NCBI GenBank assembly: GCA_016283615.1 | Contig: JAEENG010000017.1 | Location: 1-33,843 of the forward strand | Source: Treponema sp. | Lineage (GTDB): Bacteria > Spirochaetota > Spirochaetia > Treponematales > Treponemataceae | Reading direction: 5' to 3' | DNA: 33,843 nt | Part shown: positions 9,269 through 28,661 of the stretch, in pieces | Position numbering within the stretch: position 1 is the stretch's first letter | How the letters are laid out: every line of letters begins with the position of its first letter | Program-made: the position numbers and the translations under genes | The notes under the pieces: model-generated | Databases searched by the model: none | What the model was told of the DNA's origin: nothing | Seen by the model: the letters and a program-made list of their open reading frames with translations, nothing else

Positions 9269-11728
9269 ATGGCAACTTACCCGAAAGCGATTCAGGATTT
9301 ACCGATCACAGAACATCTTGATTCGATTTGTCAAACATTAAAAGACTCTCCTTCACGAATTTTAATACTCACTGCGGAAACCGGTGCAGGAAAATCAACC
9401 GCCCTCCCTCTCGCTCTTTTAAAACACTTTGACGGAAAAATAGCCATGCTTGAACCTCGCCGTCTTGCAGCCACAGCTGTTGCCTCACGGGTAGCAAATC
9501 TTCTGGATGAGGAGGTGGGACAGACTTCAGGGTACACTGTTCATCTGGATTCAAAGACCGGTAAACAAACTCGCTTTACTGTAATGACAGACGGTGTTTT
9601 TGTAAAACAAATCCAGAGCGACCCATTTTTAGAGGGGGTCAATGTTGTTGTCCTTGATGAATTCCATGAGCGCTCCTTACAGTCTGATTTATCCCTGGCA
9701 TTTTTGCGCCAGACAATGCAGGCCCGGGATGATTTGTATCTGGTCATAATGAGTGCTACGATCGACGCAAAAGCAATTTCAACTGAATTAAACGCTCAAA
9801 TTCTTCAAATTCCGGGCAAATTGTACCCTGTTCAGGTTGAATTTGAACCATCAAAGTCCGTCACATCTGTGATAATTAATGAAATAACTAACGCTCGTAA
9901 GCCTACTACCGACCGTTCGGTAGCCACCAAAACTGAAGAAAACTATCGTAAAGACACGATTCTCGTCTTTCTTCCCGGCATATACGAAATCCGTAAAATT
10001 CAGTCAGAACTCCAGGAAAAGCTCATTGACAATTCAATTGATATAAAAATCCTGCATTCCTCAATCTCCCTTGCCGAGCAGAAAGAAGTTTTAAATCCTG
10101 TTCCCCAAAATTTGCCTCAGAGGGTAATCCTGTCTTCGGCAATTGCAGAGACCTCTCTCACAGTACCGGGAGTAAACACTGTAATTGACAGCGGCTGGAT
10201 GAGGCTTAACCGGATAAATCCCCGCCTTTCCATGCAGACCCTCGTTACGGAACGTGTTTCTCTTTTTAACGCCCAGCAGAGAACAGGTCGTGCCGGACGA
10301 CTGGGACCGGGTCGCTGCATCCGTCTCTGGGACAAAAATGAAGTTCTGGTTAAACAGGTTGATCCGGAAATCCTGCGCTCGGATTTAACACCATGCGTTC
10401 TTGAATGTGCACAGTGGTCAAGCGCAGCTATCAGCAGCCTGGAGTGGCTTACTCCTCCACAGCCGTCCGCCTGGAATTCAGCCGTGAACCTTCTGGAAGG
10501 TCTTGGCTTATTAAAAGACAACAAAATCACCGGTGACGGAGAGGTTGCGCTAAGCCTTCCCCTGCATCCCCGCTTTGCCGCAGCACTCATCTTTGCTTTA
10601 AAATCAGGTAAAAAAGCAGAGGGGGTCGGCTTTGTTTCACAGTATGCTGAACAAAATAACCTTTCGCCAAAGCAGATTGAAAAATTCAAGGCGGAATTAA
10701 ATTCAAAAATAGACCGCCTTAATATCAGCACGGTCAGCAGTATGAGCAAATCCTACAGCAGGGCAAAGTTACTGCTGGCAGGCTTTCCGGACAGGCTCGG
10801 CCTGAAAACTGACGATAAATCATCAAAGGAAGGCTCAACCTATCAGTTTGTAAGCGGCAGAAAAGCATTTCTTGCCAAAAATCCATCTCAGTGTCCGGAA
10901 TGGATTATCGCAACTGATGTTGATGCGGGCACGACAACCGGCAAAATCTACGCCTTTGAATCTATAAACGAAAACGAAATCCAGAATTACATCGAAACAA
11001 ATTCAAAAGAAACAACCCGGGTTTATTTTGAAGGCAAATCCGATAAAATCAAAAAAGTTAAAATCCGTTCCCTGGGAGCAATCATCCTTAACGAAACTCC
11101 CCTTCAAGTTGATGCGGACGACTTTGCAAAAGCAATTATTAATTCAGTCAAGGAAAACGGTCTGGATTCAATTGAAATTGATGCAAGGACAAAAAACTTT
11201 TTGATGCGTTCCATTTTTTATGCTCAAAAAAAATCCCGCGAGCTTTTTACCAGACTGGAACATCTCTCCTCAAACGCAGAAGAATGGCTTTTACCTTTTA
11301 TAACCTCAAACAAACTGCAGGCTCAGACGATTTATGACGCCCTCTACTATTACCTGAACGGCCAGGAAATTGATTCAAATGTTCCTGAAATTCTGGTGCT
11401 TTCCAACGGAAAAAAGGCCAAAATTCAATATCAAATCCAGAATTCAGGGGATAACCTAACTATCGATAGTTTGCTAACTACCGTTCGTACGTTAAAAATT
11501 CAGCCGACTATTGAGATAATAATACAGCAAATCTTCGGATGCCTTTCCAATCCGACGGTCCTCGGGGAACCCGTTCTGCTTAAACTGCTTTCTCCGGCAA
11601 GACGCCCTCTGCAGATAACAACTGATCTTGCCGGTTTCTGGGACGGCGCATGGATTGAGATTTGTAAAGAAATGAAGGGGCGGTATCCGAAACATAACTG
11701 GGATTACCGCCTTGTCCAGAAAGATTAG
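9269..11728 (+). CDS. hrpB: ATP-dependent RNA helicase HrpB
   Basis: DEAH-box helicase of the HrpB family, 819 aa, close to the usual 800-850. Its cellular role is poorly defined. Visible helicase motifs: Walker A AETGAGKS at residues 36-43, motif Ia PRRLAA, motif II as DEFHER (the HrpB variant of DEAH), motif III SAT, TILVFLPGIYEI in helicase domain 2, SSAIAETSLTVPGV, and motif VI QRTGRAGR. The HA2-like and HrpB-specific C-terminal regions follow, ending in WEICKEMKGRYPKHNWDYR-like sequence expected of the family. Between the two helicase domains (around residues 205-230) there is an odd TNARKPTTDRSVATKTEE stretch encoded by ACTANCG-type repeats, and a second such stretch lies near residue 735. 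It overlaps the converging GH43 gene by 4 bp. Confidence 0.94.
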   Translation: MATYPKAIQDLPITEHLDSICQTLKDSPSRILILTAETGAGKSTALPLALLKHFDGKIAMLEPRRLAATAVASRVANLLDEEVGQTSGYTVHLDSKTGKQTRFTVMTDGVFVKQIQSDPFLEGVNVVVLDEFHERSLQSDLSLAFLRQTMQARDDLYLVIMSATIDAKAISTELNAQILQIPGKLYPVQVEFEPSKSVTSVIINEITNARKPTTDRSVATKTEENYRKDTILVFLPGIYEIRKIQSELQEKLIDNSIDIKILHSSISLAEQKEVLNPVPQNLPQRVILSSAIAETSLTVPGVNTVIDSGWMRLNRINPRLSMQTLVTERVSLFNAQQRTGRAGRLGPGRCIRLWDKNEVLVKQVDPEILRSDLTPCVLECAQWSSAAISSLEWLTPPQPSAWNSAVNLLEGLGLLKDNKITGDGEVALSLPLHPRFAAALIFALKSGKKAEGVGFVSQYAEQNNLSPKQIEKFKAELNSKIDRLNISTVSSMSKSYSRAKLLLAGFPDRLGLKTDDKSSKEGSTYQFVSGRKAFLAKNPSQCPEWIIATDVDAGTTTGKIYAFESINENEIQNYIETNSKETTRVYFEGKSDKIKKVKIRSLGAIILNETPLQVDADDFAKAIINSVKENGLDSIEIDARTKNFLMRSIFYAQKKSRELFTRLEHLSSNAEEWLLPFITSNKLQAQTIYDALYYYLNGQEIDSNVPEILVLSNGKKAKIQYQIQNSGDNLTIDSLLTTVRTLKIQPTIEIIIQQIFGCLSNPTVLGEPVLLKLLSPARRPLQITTDLAGFWDGAWIEICKEMKGRYPKHNWDYRLVQKD
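9888..9926 (+). repeat. ACTANCG-type palindromic repeat inside hrpB
   Basis: Contains ACTAACG-CT-CGTAAG followed by CTACCGA-CCGT-TCGGTAG, with a further ACTATCG about 25 bp later. It encodes part of a low-complexity linker between the helicase domains rather than a conserved motif. Confidence 0.4.
11455..11493 (+). repeat. Second ACTANCG-type palindromic repeat inside hrpB
   Basis: Contains the perfect palindrome AACTATCGATAGTT and then ACTACCG-TT-CGTACGT. It encodes a short variable stretch in the HrpB C-terminal region. Confidence 0.38.
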
Positions 11729-25147: not shown

Positions 25148-25177
25148 AAAAAAACAGCTCCCCATTTTGGGAAGCTG
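25148..25177 (-). terminator. Terminator of the BspA-like lipoprotein gene
   Basis: Minus strand CAGCTTCCC, AAAAT loop, GGGGAGCTG and seven T. It is 112 bp past the stop codon, leaving an unusually long structured 3' region. Confidence 0.85.
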
Positions 25178-25210
25178 CCCGAAAATCGTTCAGCCCGGAC
25201 TGCACACACA

Positions 25211-25254
25211 CATGGGAAAGCCCCCCGCCCGTGAAGGCGGCTTTCTTTCCCATG
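25211..25254 (-). other. 3' hairpin after the BspA-like gene, possible DGR target hairpin
   Basis: Perfect 10-bp outer stem CATGGGAAAG/CTTTCCCATG with an inner CCGCC/GGCGG stem. It is separated from the stop codon by a GC-rich stretch (CGGCGCGGGCGC on the minus strand) and lacks a T-run, so it is not the terminator. Known DGR target genes carry a GC-rich element and a hairpin or cruciform just past the variable region. Confidence 0.4.
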
Positions 25255-25289
25255 CCGTGTTTGCCTAAGAAGGCTGTGCGCCCGCGCCG

Positions 25290-25430
25290 CTAAAAAGCAC
25301 GAACTGTACAAACCGACCATTTGACGTCCTTGCCGTAGTCGTCCAAGGTGCCGTAGCCGAAATCCACAGTCCAGGCAGTGTGAATGTATGAAGCAGCGAC
25401 TTGACTAGACGACCAATAGACTGTATCAGC
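25290..25430 (-). other. Candidate diversified (VR-like) 3' end of the BspA-like gene
   Basis: The last ~45 codons encode the Lcl/DUF1566-type tail from YWSSSQ to VCTVRAF. Within it many codons end in C (GGC TAC GGC ACC, GAC GAC TAC GGC, GAC GTC), as expected if template AAC codons are mutated at A. No template repeat or reverse transcriptase is in this window, so this is a hypothesis. Confidence 0.35.
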
Positions 25431-28400
25431 GATTTTCGTTCCGCCGGCTTTTTCAAGCGCGCTGTTCACGGTGTCTTTTACCCGGTACAGCATAGAAAGT
25501 TCTGCGACCGTGGGAAGATACCAGCCGTTTGCATAACTGTCCGCAAGTGAATTTTCCGTAGCGTAGGCGTTCACCCACTCCCATGCAGGATAGTTTCCGC
25601 TCGTGCCTTCGTCGCTTACCGCATCGCAGAGAGTCTTCCAGTTGTCGCTTCCGTCTGTGTCGCCCGTGAATGTCGCTGTCGCCGCTGCTGTCTCTTCATC
25701 TGCTGGTTCTGTCTCTTCATCTGCTGGTTCTGGTTCTGTCTCTTCATATGCTGGCGTACACTGTATTGCCGTGATGTTCGTGTCGATATTCTTCGCCCAT
25801 GCAAGGAGGCTGTCAGTTCCCGTGTTCTTCAAGCCCACGCCAAGTGTTTTTGCTCCGAGCGTGTCGCTCGCGCTTCCCGCATAGTAAATCACTGCGATGG
25901 CGGCATTTTTCTCTTCGTCTGTGAGCGTGAGTCCCTCGCTGTACGGCGTTGCGCTTCCGTCCGAGAACACAATGTCGCCCACTGCGTCCGGCTTAGACTT
26001 GCTTCCAATCAGTTTTAGCGTGAAGTAGCCGGGTGAAGCCGAATCCGGGCCACCGTCTATGCGGGCGTAGGTGACATAAATATTGTTTTCATCGTAAGTT
26101 GTGCCAGACCCGCCTACAAGCTTCGAACACTGTTCAAAGCAGTCATCGCCGTTATTGACACTTGTGGTTACGAATTTGTCTGTGGCGTAAATTGTCATGA
26201 GTTCTTTGCAGCCAGAGAACATTTTTTTCATATCTGTGACATTGCTCGTGTCAAACTTGCTCAAATCAAGGCTGGTGAGTCCTTCGCAGCCAGAGAACAT
26301 GTATGACATACCTGTGACACTGCTCGTGACAAACTTGCTCACATCAAGGCTGGTGAGTCCTTTGCAGCCATTGAACATGACTGTCATCATTGTGACTTCG
26401 CTCGTGTTAAAGCCACTCACATCAAGGCTTTTGAGACCAGAACATCCTTCGAACATGCCATACATATCCGTGACATTGCCCGTGTTAAATCCAGTCACAT
26501 TAAGGCTGGTGAGTTTAGAGCAGCCAGAGAACATATTTTTCATACTTTTGACATTGCTCGTGACAAACTTGCTCACATCAAGGCTGGTGAGTCCTTCGCA
26601 GCCAGAGAACATTTCTTCCATATTTTGGACATTGCTGGTGACAAACTTGCTCACATCAAGGCTGGTGAGTTTAGAGCAGTCAGAGAACATATTATTCATA
26701 CCTTTGACATTGCTCGTGTTAAAGCCAGTCACATCAAGGTTTGTGAGACCAGAACAATAAGAGAACATCTCTGACATATCTGTGACATTGCTCGTGACAA
26801 ACTTGCTCACATCAAGGCTTGCGAGACCAGAACACCCGGAGAACATGCCTGACATATCTGTGACATTGCCCGTGACAAACTTGCTCACATCAAGGCTGGT
26901 GAGTCCTTTGCAGCCAAAGAACATGCTTGACATAACTGTGACATTGCTCGTGACAAACTTGCTCACATCAAGGCTGATGAGACCAGAACAACCCATGAAC
27001 ATGGCTGACATATTTGTGACATTGCCCGTGTCAAACTTGCTCAAATCAAGGCTTGTGAGACCAGAACAACCGTAGAACATGCCTGCCATATTTGTGACAT
27101 TGCTCGTGTCAAAGCCAGTCACATCAAGGCTGGTGAGTTCAGTGCAGAAAAGGAACATTGCTGAGCTGTCTTCGTTCATCACGGGCGTGTATCCGTCTGG
27201 GACATAGTAATAAACCTCTGTACCCTCTGACCATACAGGGATGTATTTTTCCTCTGTGTCAAGATACAGGGTGGCTTCTTCTTTGTTTGTAGCACTCCTT
27301 GCAAATTTTGTACATGCAGGGTATCCATAGTCGTTTTTACACAACTTCACAAGTATTGAATTGATATCAGCGCCAGTTTTGAGTTTGAGGGTGAGGGGAG
27401 AAGCCTCTGTCACCGTAAGCGTGTAGCTCGCGGTCTTCGTGGCGTAGGTGTAGTTGTCGGTGTCTGCTACAGTTGCTGTGATAGTTGTTTCACCTGCTCC
27501 CTTGATGGTCACTAAGCCGTTTTGGGTATTTACTTCGGCTACAGCTGTTTTGCTTGAAGCGTAGGTAACTGCGCCGTCGCCTGTATTGGTAAGGGTGTTG
27601 GTGAAAGCCGCGGCGGCGGTAGTCTTGCTTACGCTCGTGGTGGCGTAGCTGATGCTGCCTGCAGCCTTTTGTGGTGTAACAGCCGTCTCCGTCCACTTCG
27701 CATACAGCGTGATGTCTTTCTTAATTGCCGTGTCAAAACTGAAAGGAGTTGTCAGGCCGCTGTCTGAATACCAGGCATCGAAGGTGTATTTTGTAGTTGT
27801 CGTTGCCGTTTTTGTAGGGTCGGCAGGCTCGGTTGCTGTTGCTCCATAACGCAGGGACTGTGAGGAAACATCACTTCCGCCGTTCGAGTCGAATGTTACT
27901 GTGTAAGTGTTGCGGTTGTATTTGATTTCCACCTCTGTTCCGCTCGCCGCAACTGTCACTTGTGTGACTGTCTGTGCCGTGAAGCCCTCATAAGATTTTG
28001 CGCTTGCATCCGTAGGCTGGCCGACTGTGCCTGTCTTCGTTTCGCTTTCTTTGAGTGTGTAATTGTTATCGGCTATATTCTGCTGAAAGTGCTTAACCGT
28101 GTAGCTTGCGTTTTTTGGCTCGGCCGCTGCTTTAAGTTCTGCATATTTAGTTTCAGCGGCTGTCAGCAGGGCCAGCGTCTCTTCTGGAACAAGTTCCTTC
28201 TGTGCCTCGGTGAGTGCCTCATAAGCCGCGCGGGCATCGTCTATCTTTTCCTTGCTTTCATCCGTGTAGGTGACTGTGCTGATGGCGGTGATTTTTGCGA
28301 TAACCGCAGCTACTGCTTTCTGGTTTACAGTTTCCGCAGTCTCCTTGAATGTGGCGCTTACAGTCACGTTGCTTTCTGGCATGGTGAAAGTGCCGTCCTT

Positions 28401-28661
28401 AACCGTAATGGTGTTTGATTTTTCATCCTTTACGTTGTATGAGTCCAGCTCATAGCCACTATCTGCTGTCGCGGCAAGTTTTACTGTCGCTCCCGCTTCT
28501 GCCGATGTCTTGTCAACGCTCACTTTTCCATGCTCAATGGAAGATGAGACTGTGACCGTGTACATGGTCGGGTCGTCATCGTCTGTCTTACAGGCGATGG
28601 CGCAAAAAGTGAGCGCAAGAATTGCACTCATTAATGTGAAAACTTTTGAGAATCTTTGCAT
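25290..28661 (-). CDS. BspA-like surface lipoprotein with DUF285 repeats and Lcl/DUF1566-type C-terminus
   Basis: A 1123-aa predicted surface adhesin-like protein. Signal MQRFSKVFTLMSAILALTFC leads to a lipobox ending at Cys24 (AIAC). Then come an InlB-B-like repeat (about 33-112), a helical Ala/Glu spacer (about 112-180), a MucBP-like stretch, a Listeria-Bacteroides Flg_new repeat (TVTFDSNGG to LYAKWTE), a Big_2-like Ig domain, and 12 full 26-residue BspA/DUF285 repeats (509-820) plus a degenerate one. A segment with an acidic PADEETE linker follows, then a C-terminal domain with GWYLPTVAELSMLYR and YWSSSQ, as in Lcl/DUF1566 proteins of the C-type-lectin-like group. AGGAGG sits 7 nt before the ATG. 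Likely role: attachment or ligand display at the cell surface. The 3' end has features of a DGR target. Confidence 0.88.
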   Translation of the reverse strand: MQRFSKVFTLMSAILALTFCAIACKTDDDDPTMYTVTVSSSIEHGKVSVDKTSAEAGATVKLAATADSGYELDSYNVKDEKSNTITVKDGTFTMPESNVTVSATFKETAETVNQKAVAAVIAKITAISTVTYTDESKEKIDDARAAYEALTEAQKELVPEETLALLTAAETKYAELKAAAEPKNASYTVKHFQQNIADNNYTLKESETKTGTVGQPTDASAKSYEGFTAQTVTQVTVAASGTEVEIKYNRNTYTVTFDSNGGSDVSSQSLRYGATATEPADPTKTATTTTKYTFDAWYSDSGLTTPFSFDTAIKKDITLYAKWTETAVTPQKAAGSISYATTSVSKTTAAAAFTNTLTNTGDGAVTYASSKTAVAEVNTQNGLVTIKGAGETTITATVADTDNYTYATKTASYTLTVTEASPLTLKLKTGADINSILVKLCKNDYGYPACTKFARSATNKEEATLYLDTEEKYIPVWSEGTEVYYYVPDGYTPVMNEDSSAMFLFCTELTSLDVTGFDTSNVTNMAGMFYGCSGLTSLDLSKFDTGNVTNMSAMFMGCSGLISLDVSKFVTSNVTVMSSMFFGCKGLTSLDVSKFVTGNVTDMSGMFSGCSGLASLDVSKFVTSNVTDMSEMFSYCSGLTNLDVTGFNTSNVKGMNNMFSDCSKLTSLDVSKFVTSNVQNMEEMFSGCEGLTSLDVSKFVTSNVKSMKNMFSGCSKLTSLNVTGFNTGNVTDMYGMFEGCSGLKSLDVSGFNTSEVTMMTVMFNGCKGLTSLDVSKFVTSSVTGMSYMFSGCEGLTSLDLSKFDTSNVTDMKKMFSGCKELMTIYATDKFVTTSVNNGDDCFEQCSKLVGGSGTTYDENNIYVTYARIDGGPDSASPGYFTLKLIGSKSKPDAVGDIVFSDGSATPYSEGLTLTDEEKNAAIAVIYYAGSASDTLGAKTLGVGLKNTGTDSLLAWAKNIDTNITAIQCTPAYEETEPEPADEETEPADEETAAATATFTGDTDGSDNWKTLCDAVSDEGTSGNYPAWEWVNAYATENSLADSYANGWYLPTVAELSMLYRVKDTVNSALEKAGGTKIADTVYWSSSQVAASYIHTAWTVDFGYGTLDDYGKDVKWSVCTVRAF
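25690..25754 (-). repeat. 21-bp tandem repeat encoding an acidic linker
   Basis: Copies of a 21-bp unit (TCTTCATCTGCTGGTTCTGT on the plus strand) give PADEETE-type repeats before the C-terminal domain. The repeat number could vary between strains. Confidence 0.7.
26202..27137 (-). repeat. Twelve 78-bp repeats coding DUF285/BspA units
   Basis: The period is 78 bp (26 aa) with consensus LTSLDVSKFVTSNVTDM followed by xxMFSGCSG. Twelve complete units plus one degenerate unit (LMTIYATDKFVTTSVNNG) are seen. High DNA identity between units makes expansion or contraction likely. Confidence 0.93.

Follow-up and report, generated by a model that had tools for sequence, protein, structure and literature searches.

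A probably orphaned target of an Lcl-type diversity-generating retroelement in Treponema

The window, which is a stretch of 33,843 nucleotides from a Treponema sp. genome (assembly GCA_016283615.1, contig JAEENG010000017.1), carries on its minus strand an open reading frame at 25290..28661, here called the target gene, which encodes a predicted surface lipoprotein of 1123 aa that combines InlB-type B-repeats and DUF285/PARCEL leucine-rich repeats with an Lcl domain at the C-terminus. Sequence comparison identifies the 3' end of this gene as a variable region (VR) of a diversity-generating retroelement (DGR). The best explanation, held at a probability of about 0.75, is that the VR was written by an Lcl-targeting DGR lineage, of which the gene now most likely represents an orphaned target. 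A DGR formed by a template repeat (TR), Avd and a reverse transcriptase (RT), of the kind that persists in the sister species G119, would have had its AAC-rich template copied to RNA, this RNA would have been reverse-transcribed with errors at adenines, and the cDNA would have been pasted over the last ~125 bp of the target gene; this would have altered the loops that a C-type-lectin-like domain exposes at the cell surface. A GC block and a hairpin found after the stop codon would serve as the docking signal, and the diversification would have taken place formerly, in trans or prior to the loss of the cassette.

Variable region and the template of a sister species

The 3' end of the target gene was searched against 200 genomes of the genus, and homologues are found in 12 other genomes, the species comparison being based on one genome per species. 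G119 (Treponema sp. RGIG4455, a MAG from roe deer omasum) holds a complete DGR with the order TR-bAvd-RT-Lcl target, which is accompanied by a RelE-like toxin gene. The RT has the DGR-like motifs IGNLTSQ and YVDD, and the AAC-rich TR encodes WSSSQNASNNNNAWNVWFDDGNLNNNNKNNNKSVCTVRAF. Of the Lcl genes in G119, which number two, the first is local and the second is remote, on another contig (C20). Each has 21 mismatches to the TR, with 19 of them at TR adenines; the remote gene is apparently a target acted on in trans.

The VR of the window (25292..25417, minus strand) is homologous to the G119 TR, to which the whole-genome search aligns it over ~124 nt (E=5e-20), and shows 27 mismatches to this TR, 20 of them at TR adenines, which make up 33% of the sites. 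With this sister-species TR as the reference, 20 of 40 adenine sites are changed against 7 of 83 others (Fisher p=5.6e-7). In other species the mismatches to the same TR also fall at adenines: 15/15 in G023, 16/17 in G189, 21/22 in G179, 22/23 in G186 and 19/21 in G206. The hypervariable codons of the window correspond to aa 1088-1115 (VAASYIHTAWTVDFGYGTLDDYGKDVKW; 25317..25400, minus strand), while the VR 3' end (TCGGTTTGTACAGTTCGTGCTTTTT; 25292..25316, minus strand) is invariant, is the same in the G119 TR and is a candidate IMH. The original prediction that the gene is a DGR target is thus borne out as regards the homology of its 3' end to a TR and the placement of the mismatches at TR adenines, but the TR of this genome itself, described below, does not match.

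The codon positions of the VR behave in an inverted manner. Among 12 genes, the differences per codon position 1/2/3 are 0.111/0.125/0.243 upstream and 0.446/0.427/0.136 in the VR, so positions 1 and 2 are ~4x more variable than upstream and position 3 is less variable. This pattern is not expected of ordinary divergence or selection, and the rewriting of AAC/AAT codons gives it. Loops of Lcl domains face ligands, and the domain is divergent in other bacteria too, which speaks for ordinary positive selection on the ligand-binding loop of a surface lectin, with no DGR involved. Such selection is nevertheless very improbable as the explanation, because it does not account for third positions that vary less than upstream while the first two vary far more, because the mismatches track the adenines of a genuine TR that adjoins an RT, and because the adenine bias is mostly absent from non-DGR homologues. 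For this last point, nine more distant Lcl homologues were compared likewise with the G119 TR: four have no adenine bias (p 0.18-0.49), two are non-significant (p 0.06 and 0.09) and three are biased (T. socranskii, p=7e-5; G031, p=0.005; L187, p=0.007), which may have a DGR history of their own. The homologue of Treponema socranskii ATCC 35535, an oral species (L178, C-terminus at 10432), has 29 of 39 adenines and 29 of 81 other sites mismatched to the G119 TR and is a possible DGR target.

The codon usage of the gene alone does not reveal the rewriting. The last 45 codons were predicted to be rich in NNC codons as a trace of adenine mutagenesis, but NNC reaches 36% there against 34% over the full length of the gene and 37% over the leucine-rich repeat part, so this argument is invalid, and the codon signature is visible only through comparison with relatives. 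NNY codons make up 71% of the last 45 codons against 57%.

Besides the adenine differences, the window VR has the seven non-adenine mismatches and one additional codon relative to the G119 TR, which means either that it was written from a different allele of the template or that the gene drifted. Three of the seven mismatches fall in a single codon (TGG to GAT), which reads AAT in the three other TRs, and this one-codon cluster suggests that the template was probably an allele differing from the G119 TR. The TRs of G196, G114 and G118 were rejected as its source, as each of them has 26-27 non-adenine mismatches to the window.

Template and cassette in this genome and across the genus

No cognate TR is found in the genome assembly by BLAST, by an adenine-tolerant pattern, by TR homology or by an N-run motif search. 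The TR homology search is sensitive, as it recovered TRs at 70-76% identity adjoining RTs in G196, G118, G114, G062, G115 and G112. The adenine-tolerant pattern is insufficient alone, for it allows three non-adenine differences and the window has four in the core relative to the G119 TR; the absence of a TR therefore rests on the BLAST, TR homology and N-run searches. An N-run match on contig C14 was rejected, since it is the start of an unrelated lipoprotein. A relative was also looked for in viral contigs and none was found. Neither an RT nor a template repeat is present in the window, as had been noted from its letters, and no genome-wide search locates one in it.

The single RT of the genome lies on contig C26 and is of DGR type, with the motifs GCRTSQ and YMDD. 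This resident DGR (L001) has a bAvd gene, a FGE-sulfatase-type variable protein, a VR at 369-517, a TR at 983-1131 and the RT at 1294-2313, and all 14 of its VR/TR mismatches are at TR adenines. A DGR-type RT with Avd, as expected of a resident DGR, is thus present, but with its own FGE-type TR and VR. That this DGR mutates the target gene is hardly credible: it is the sole RT-bearing element, complete with Avd and TR and with an adenine-specific record, but its TR finds no match at the Lcl gene in the genome searches, DGR homing requires TR-VR homology, and a second, Lcl-type TR would be needed, of which none was found. For this reason the C26 DGR was rejected as the writer. Its TR has one additional match, within a TolC-like gene on C129, which is due to chance. 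The C26 RT is nearly identical to the RT of another species, G136, and the MAG is 5.4% contaminated, which suggests transfer or contamination of the contig. Further DGRs with adenine-only TR/VR pairs were seen by a simple scan in many other genomes of the genus (L127, L125, L129, L131, L132, L135 and L136), and the genus is rich in DGRs. The genome search for an RT and a matching TR, which had been proposed with the original prediction, yields a canonical DGR with its RT on C26 and no matching TR; the RT half of the result that was to speak against the prediction, an absence of both from the genome, is therefore false, and the TR half holds so far.

The VR type occurs in twelve genomes (G000, which is the genome of the window, G001, G023, G112, G114, G118, G119, G179, G186, G189, G203 and G206), of which G119 alone has the cognate TR. 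The core is present in diverged form in G112, G114 and G118; in the other 8/12 genomes no RT of the Lcl-type lineage is detected. In G119 the cassette, 4.3 kb long, separates two genes that are neighbours where it is absent, with a gap of ~74 nt in G000, ~119 nt in G206 and ~250 nt in G112. A degenerate TR copy is seen in G118 (C37, L078:1762-1871), preceded by the TR leader and joined to a stop codon and the 3' flank of the VR; its 5.5-kb contig has no RT, and its mismatches to the neighbouring VR fall at 13 of 29 adenines and 4 of 73 other sites, so that it is possibly a snapshot of a decaying DGR. The cassette-free junctions, the distribution of the TR and this remnant indicate gain and loss of the cassette, with orphan targets left behind.

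Since the cognate cassette is not in the assembly, the target gene has probably been orphaned, and the cassette would have been lost as opposed to not assembled. The assembly is a MAG of 209 contigs, so that a resident cassette may have been left unassembled. The target gene would then be a currently active remote target, whose cognate TR, with or without an RT, is in the real genome and was missed by assembly or binning, and the fact that TR/VR repeats can break assemblies and that the C20 Lcl gene of G119 matches a TR on a different contig agree with this. It is an appreciable but minority possibility, because VRs without a cognate TR are also found in G206 (94% complete, ~10 contigs), G001 (97%, ~6 contigs) and G203 (98%), and because neither G000 nor G206 has the cassette at the corresponding junction. 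The action in trans that had been predicted accordingly has a precedent in the remote target of G119, but with no cognate TR in the assembly and the TR of this genome unmatched, present-day targeting in trans is not supported and an orphaned target is more likely.

Conserved 3' flank and the history of the variable region

The order of elements after the stop codon, predicted as a GC-rich block, a 10-bp hairpin and then a terminator, is found as described. The GC-rich block CGGCGCGGGCGC (25278..25289, minus strand) is right after the stop codon and is conserved in sister species. It is followed by a hairpin or cruciform candidate (25211..25254, minus strand) with a 10-bp outer stem, whose arms at 25245-25254 and 25211-25220 pair perfectly, a 6-bp inner stem and a 4-nt loop. 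An intrinsic-terminator-like hairpin with a T-run is separate (25148..25177, minus strand). A 79-nt flank, which begins at the stop codon, takes in the GC block and ends with the hairpin, has 85-99% identity among eight other genes across species. The conservation stops at the 3' arm of the hairpin, and past it the identity is ~36-56%, the syntenic G206 excepted. The local G119 target and G023 have another hairpin, of 12-14 bp, at a similar distance. The GC block and the hairpin are likely a docking signal.

In the BPP-1 phage, the required target region is closed by a hairpin that tolerates different stem sequences (PMC3240598). Likewise, the Treponema VRs have an invariant 3' end, of 25 nt; the hairpin after it has GC in its stem and marks the end of conservation, and the stem sequence varies between targets. 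Unlike in the phage, the hairpin here starts ~37 nt past the VR (published phage range 4-34) and has a two-part stem, its loop is TCAC and not the phage consensus GRNA, and its docking role is putative.

The conservation of the flank also bears on where the VR was written. The 79-nt flank is near-identical between species with far larger upstream differences; that of G112 is identical at 77 of 79 positions, although the coding sequence just upstream of the VR differs by ~35%, and the Lcl gene of G112, ~36% divergent upstream, has only 6/83 non-adenine differences from the G119 TR. A VR that was not written in the lineage of the window, and reached it from another treponeme, already diversified and together with its flank, via horizontal transfer or gene conversion, would fit these values. 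This transfer is rather unlikely, as the locus is syntenic on the carB side, where the target gene adjoins carB in G000, G206, G189 and G179, and no VR sequence is common to any two genes; the VR would be DGR-made even so. In G186 (C21, L077:6878-10882), a single ORF has two tandem Lcl domains with VRs, the first of which lost its stop codon, and a third copy, 0.8 kb further, retains only the VR end and the 79-nt flank.

The comparison with the syntenic G206 gene places part of the rewriting after the split of the two species, for 20 of 40 TR-adenine sites differ between them against 7/83 non-adenine sites and 14/234 (6%) in the upstream Lcl domain, so that rewriting of the VR has since occurred in one lineage or in both. 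In G023, G189, G206, G179 and one G186 gene (G186a), non-adenine mismatches of the VR to the G119 TR are 0-2/83 against ~9-13% upstream divergence from the G119 genes. In the window, the non-adenine divergence from the G119 TR is 8.4% against 12.8% upstream, a difference that is non-significant (p=0.19), and a recent overwriting of this VR by a G119-type TR is therefore not supported.

A broader and tentative proposal, somewhat doubtful at present, is that in rumen treponemes the Lcl-type TR-Avd-RT core is a mobile cassette that would enter genomes, rewrite resident Lcl lipoproteins in trans via the 79-nt flank as a portable docking unit, and then be lost, leaving fresh orphan VRs, a hit-and-run diversification across species. 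Non-adenine sites that match the G119 TR almost perfectly, in genomes without this TR, make such mobile, trans-species DGR action directly testable.

Encoded protein and relation to known DGR targets

The 1123-aa protein, which appears to be a lipoprotein from its N-terminus MQRFSKVFTLMSAILALTFCAIAC, has Pfam and NCBIfam matches to DUF285, Flg_new, Flg_new_2, LRR_5, Lcl_C and 12 PARCEL repeats, and its surface display and ligand binding are presumed. The Lcl_C/DUF1566 match at the C-terminus scores 30.2 bits in the whole-protein scan, slightly below the Pfam cut-off of 34.9, and 36.8 bits, exceeding it, in the genome search, where the target gene is the sole Lcl_C match. The motifs GWYLPTVAEL, YWSSSQ and SVCTVRAF are all present in this domain.

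The Lcl or C-type-lectin-like domain (25293..25982, minus strand) contains the VR and has a profile match to 4eps, and its AlphaFold model has a pLDDT of 93.0 and a pTM of 0.90. The top Foldseek match is the C-terminal domain of the Legionella pneumophila Lcl (PDB 8q4e; E=2.1e-4, prob 1.00), although with ~25% identity over 102 columns only and TMq 0.29 and TMt 0.49, and the matches after it are C-type lectins with weak scores. The model and its matches thus give the C-type-lectin-like scaffold that is expected of a DGR target.

Lcl-type DGR targets have been described before, as have orphan VRs in Treponema. Among the Pfam target domains of the human-microbiome DGR set, DUF1566 is the most frequent (PMC4159848, PMC6642488), and as in those DUF1566/Lcl_C proteins, which are related to structure 4EPS, the VR here is at the C-terminus of the domain. 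For those proteins a TR is reported in the same element, unlike the target gene, which is without one, and no description of the B-repeats, PARCEL/LRR and Lcl architecture was seen for that set. In T. denticola, DGRs have remote targets, and isolates without TR or RT keep targets that differ from the TR of a relative mainly at adenines and that the study interprets as leftovers (PMC4891356). Both cases are Treponema DGRs with remote and leftover target genes; however, the T. denticola targets are all of FGE-sulfatase type and from a single species, whereas here the target is an Lcl lipoprotein with PARCEL repeats and the matching TR is in another species.

The cross-species pattern of orphan VRs is the most interesting part, the target domain class itself being known. 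Large DGR surveys count RT-adjacent targets and state that remote ones are missed (PMC8144416). With a cognate template in 1/12 genomes and the lineage RT undetected in two thirds of them, DGR-made surface diversity may exceed such RT-centred counts. The target protein also combines, in one chain, the DGR target domain with the twelve PARCEL (TIGR02167) repeats at ~26082-27224 of the window, a repeat family for which horizontal spread is reported (PMC2996958).
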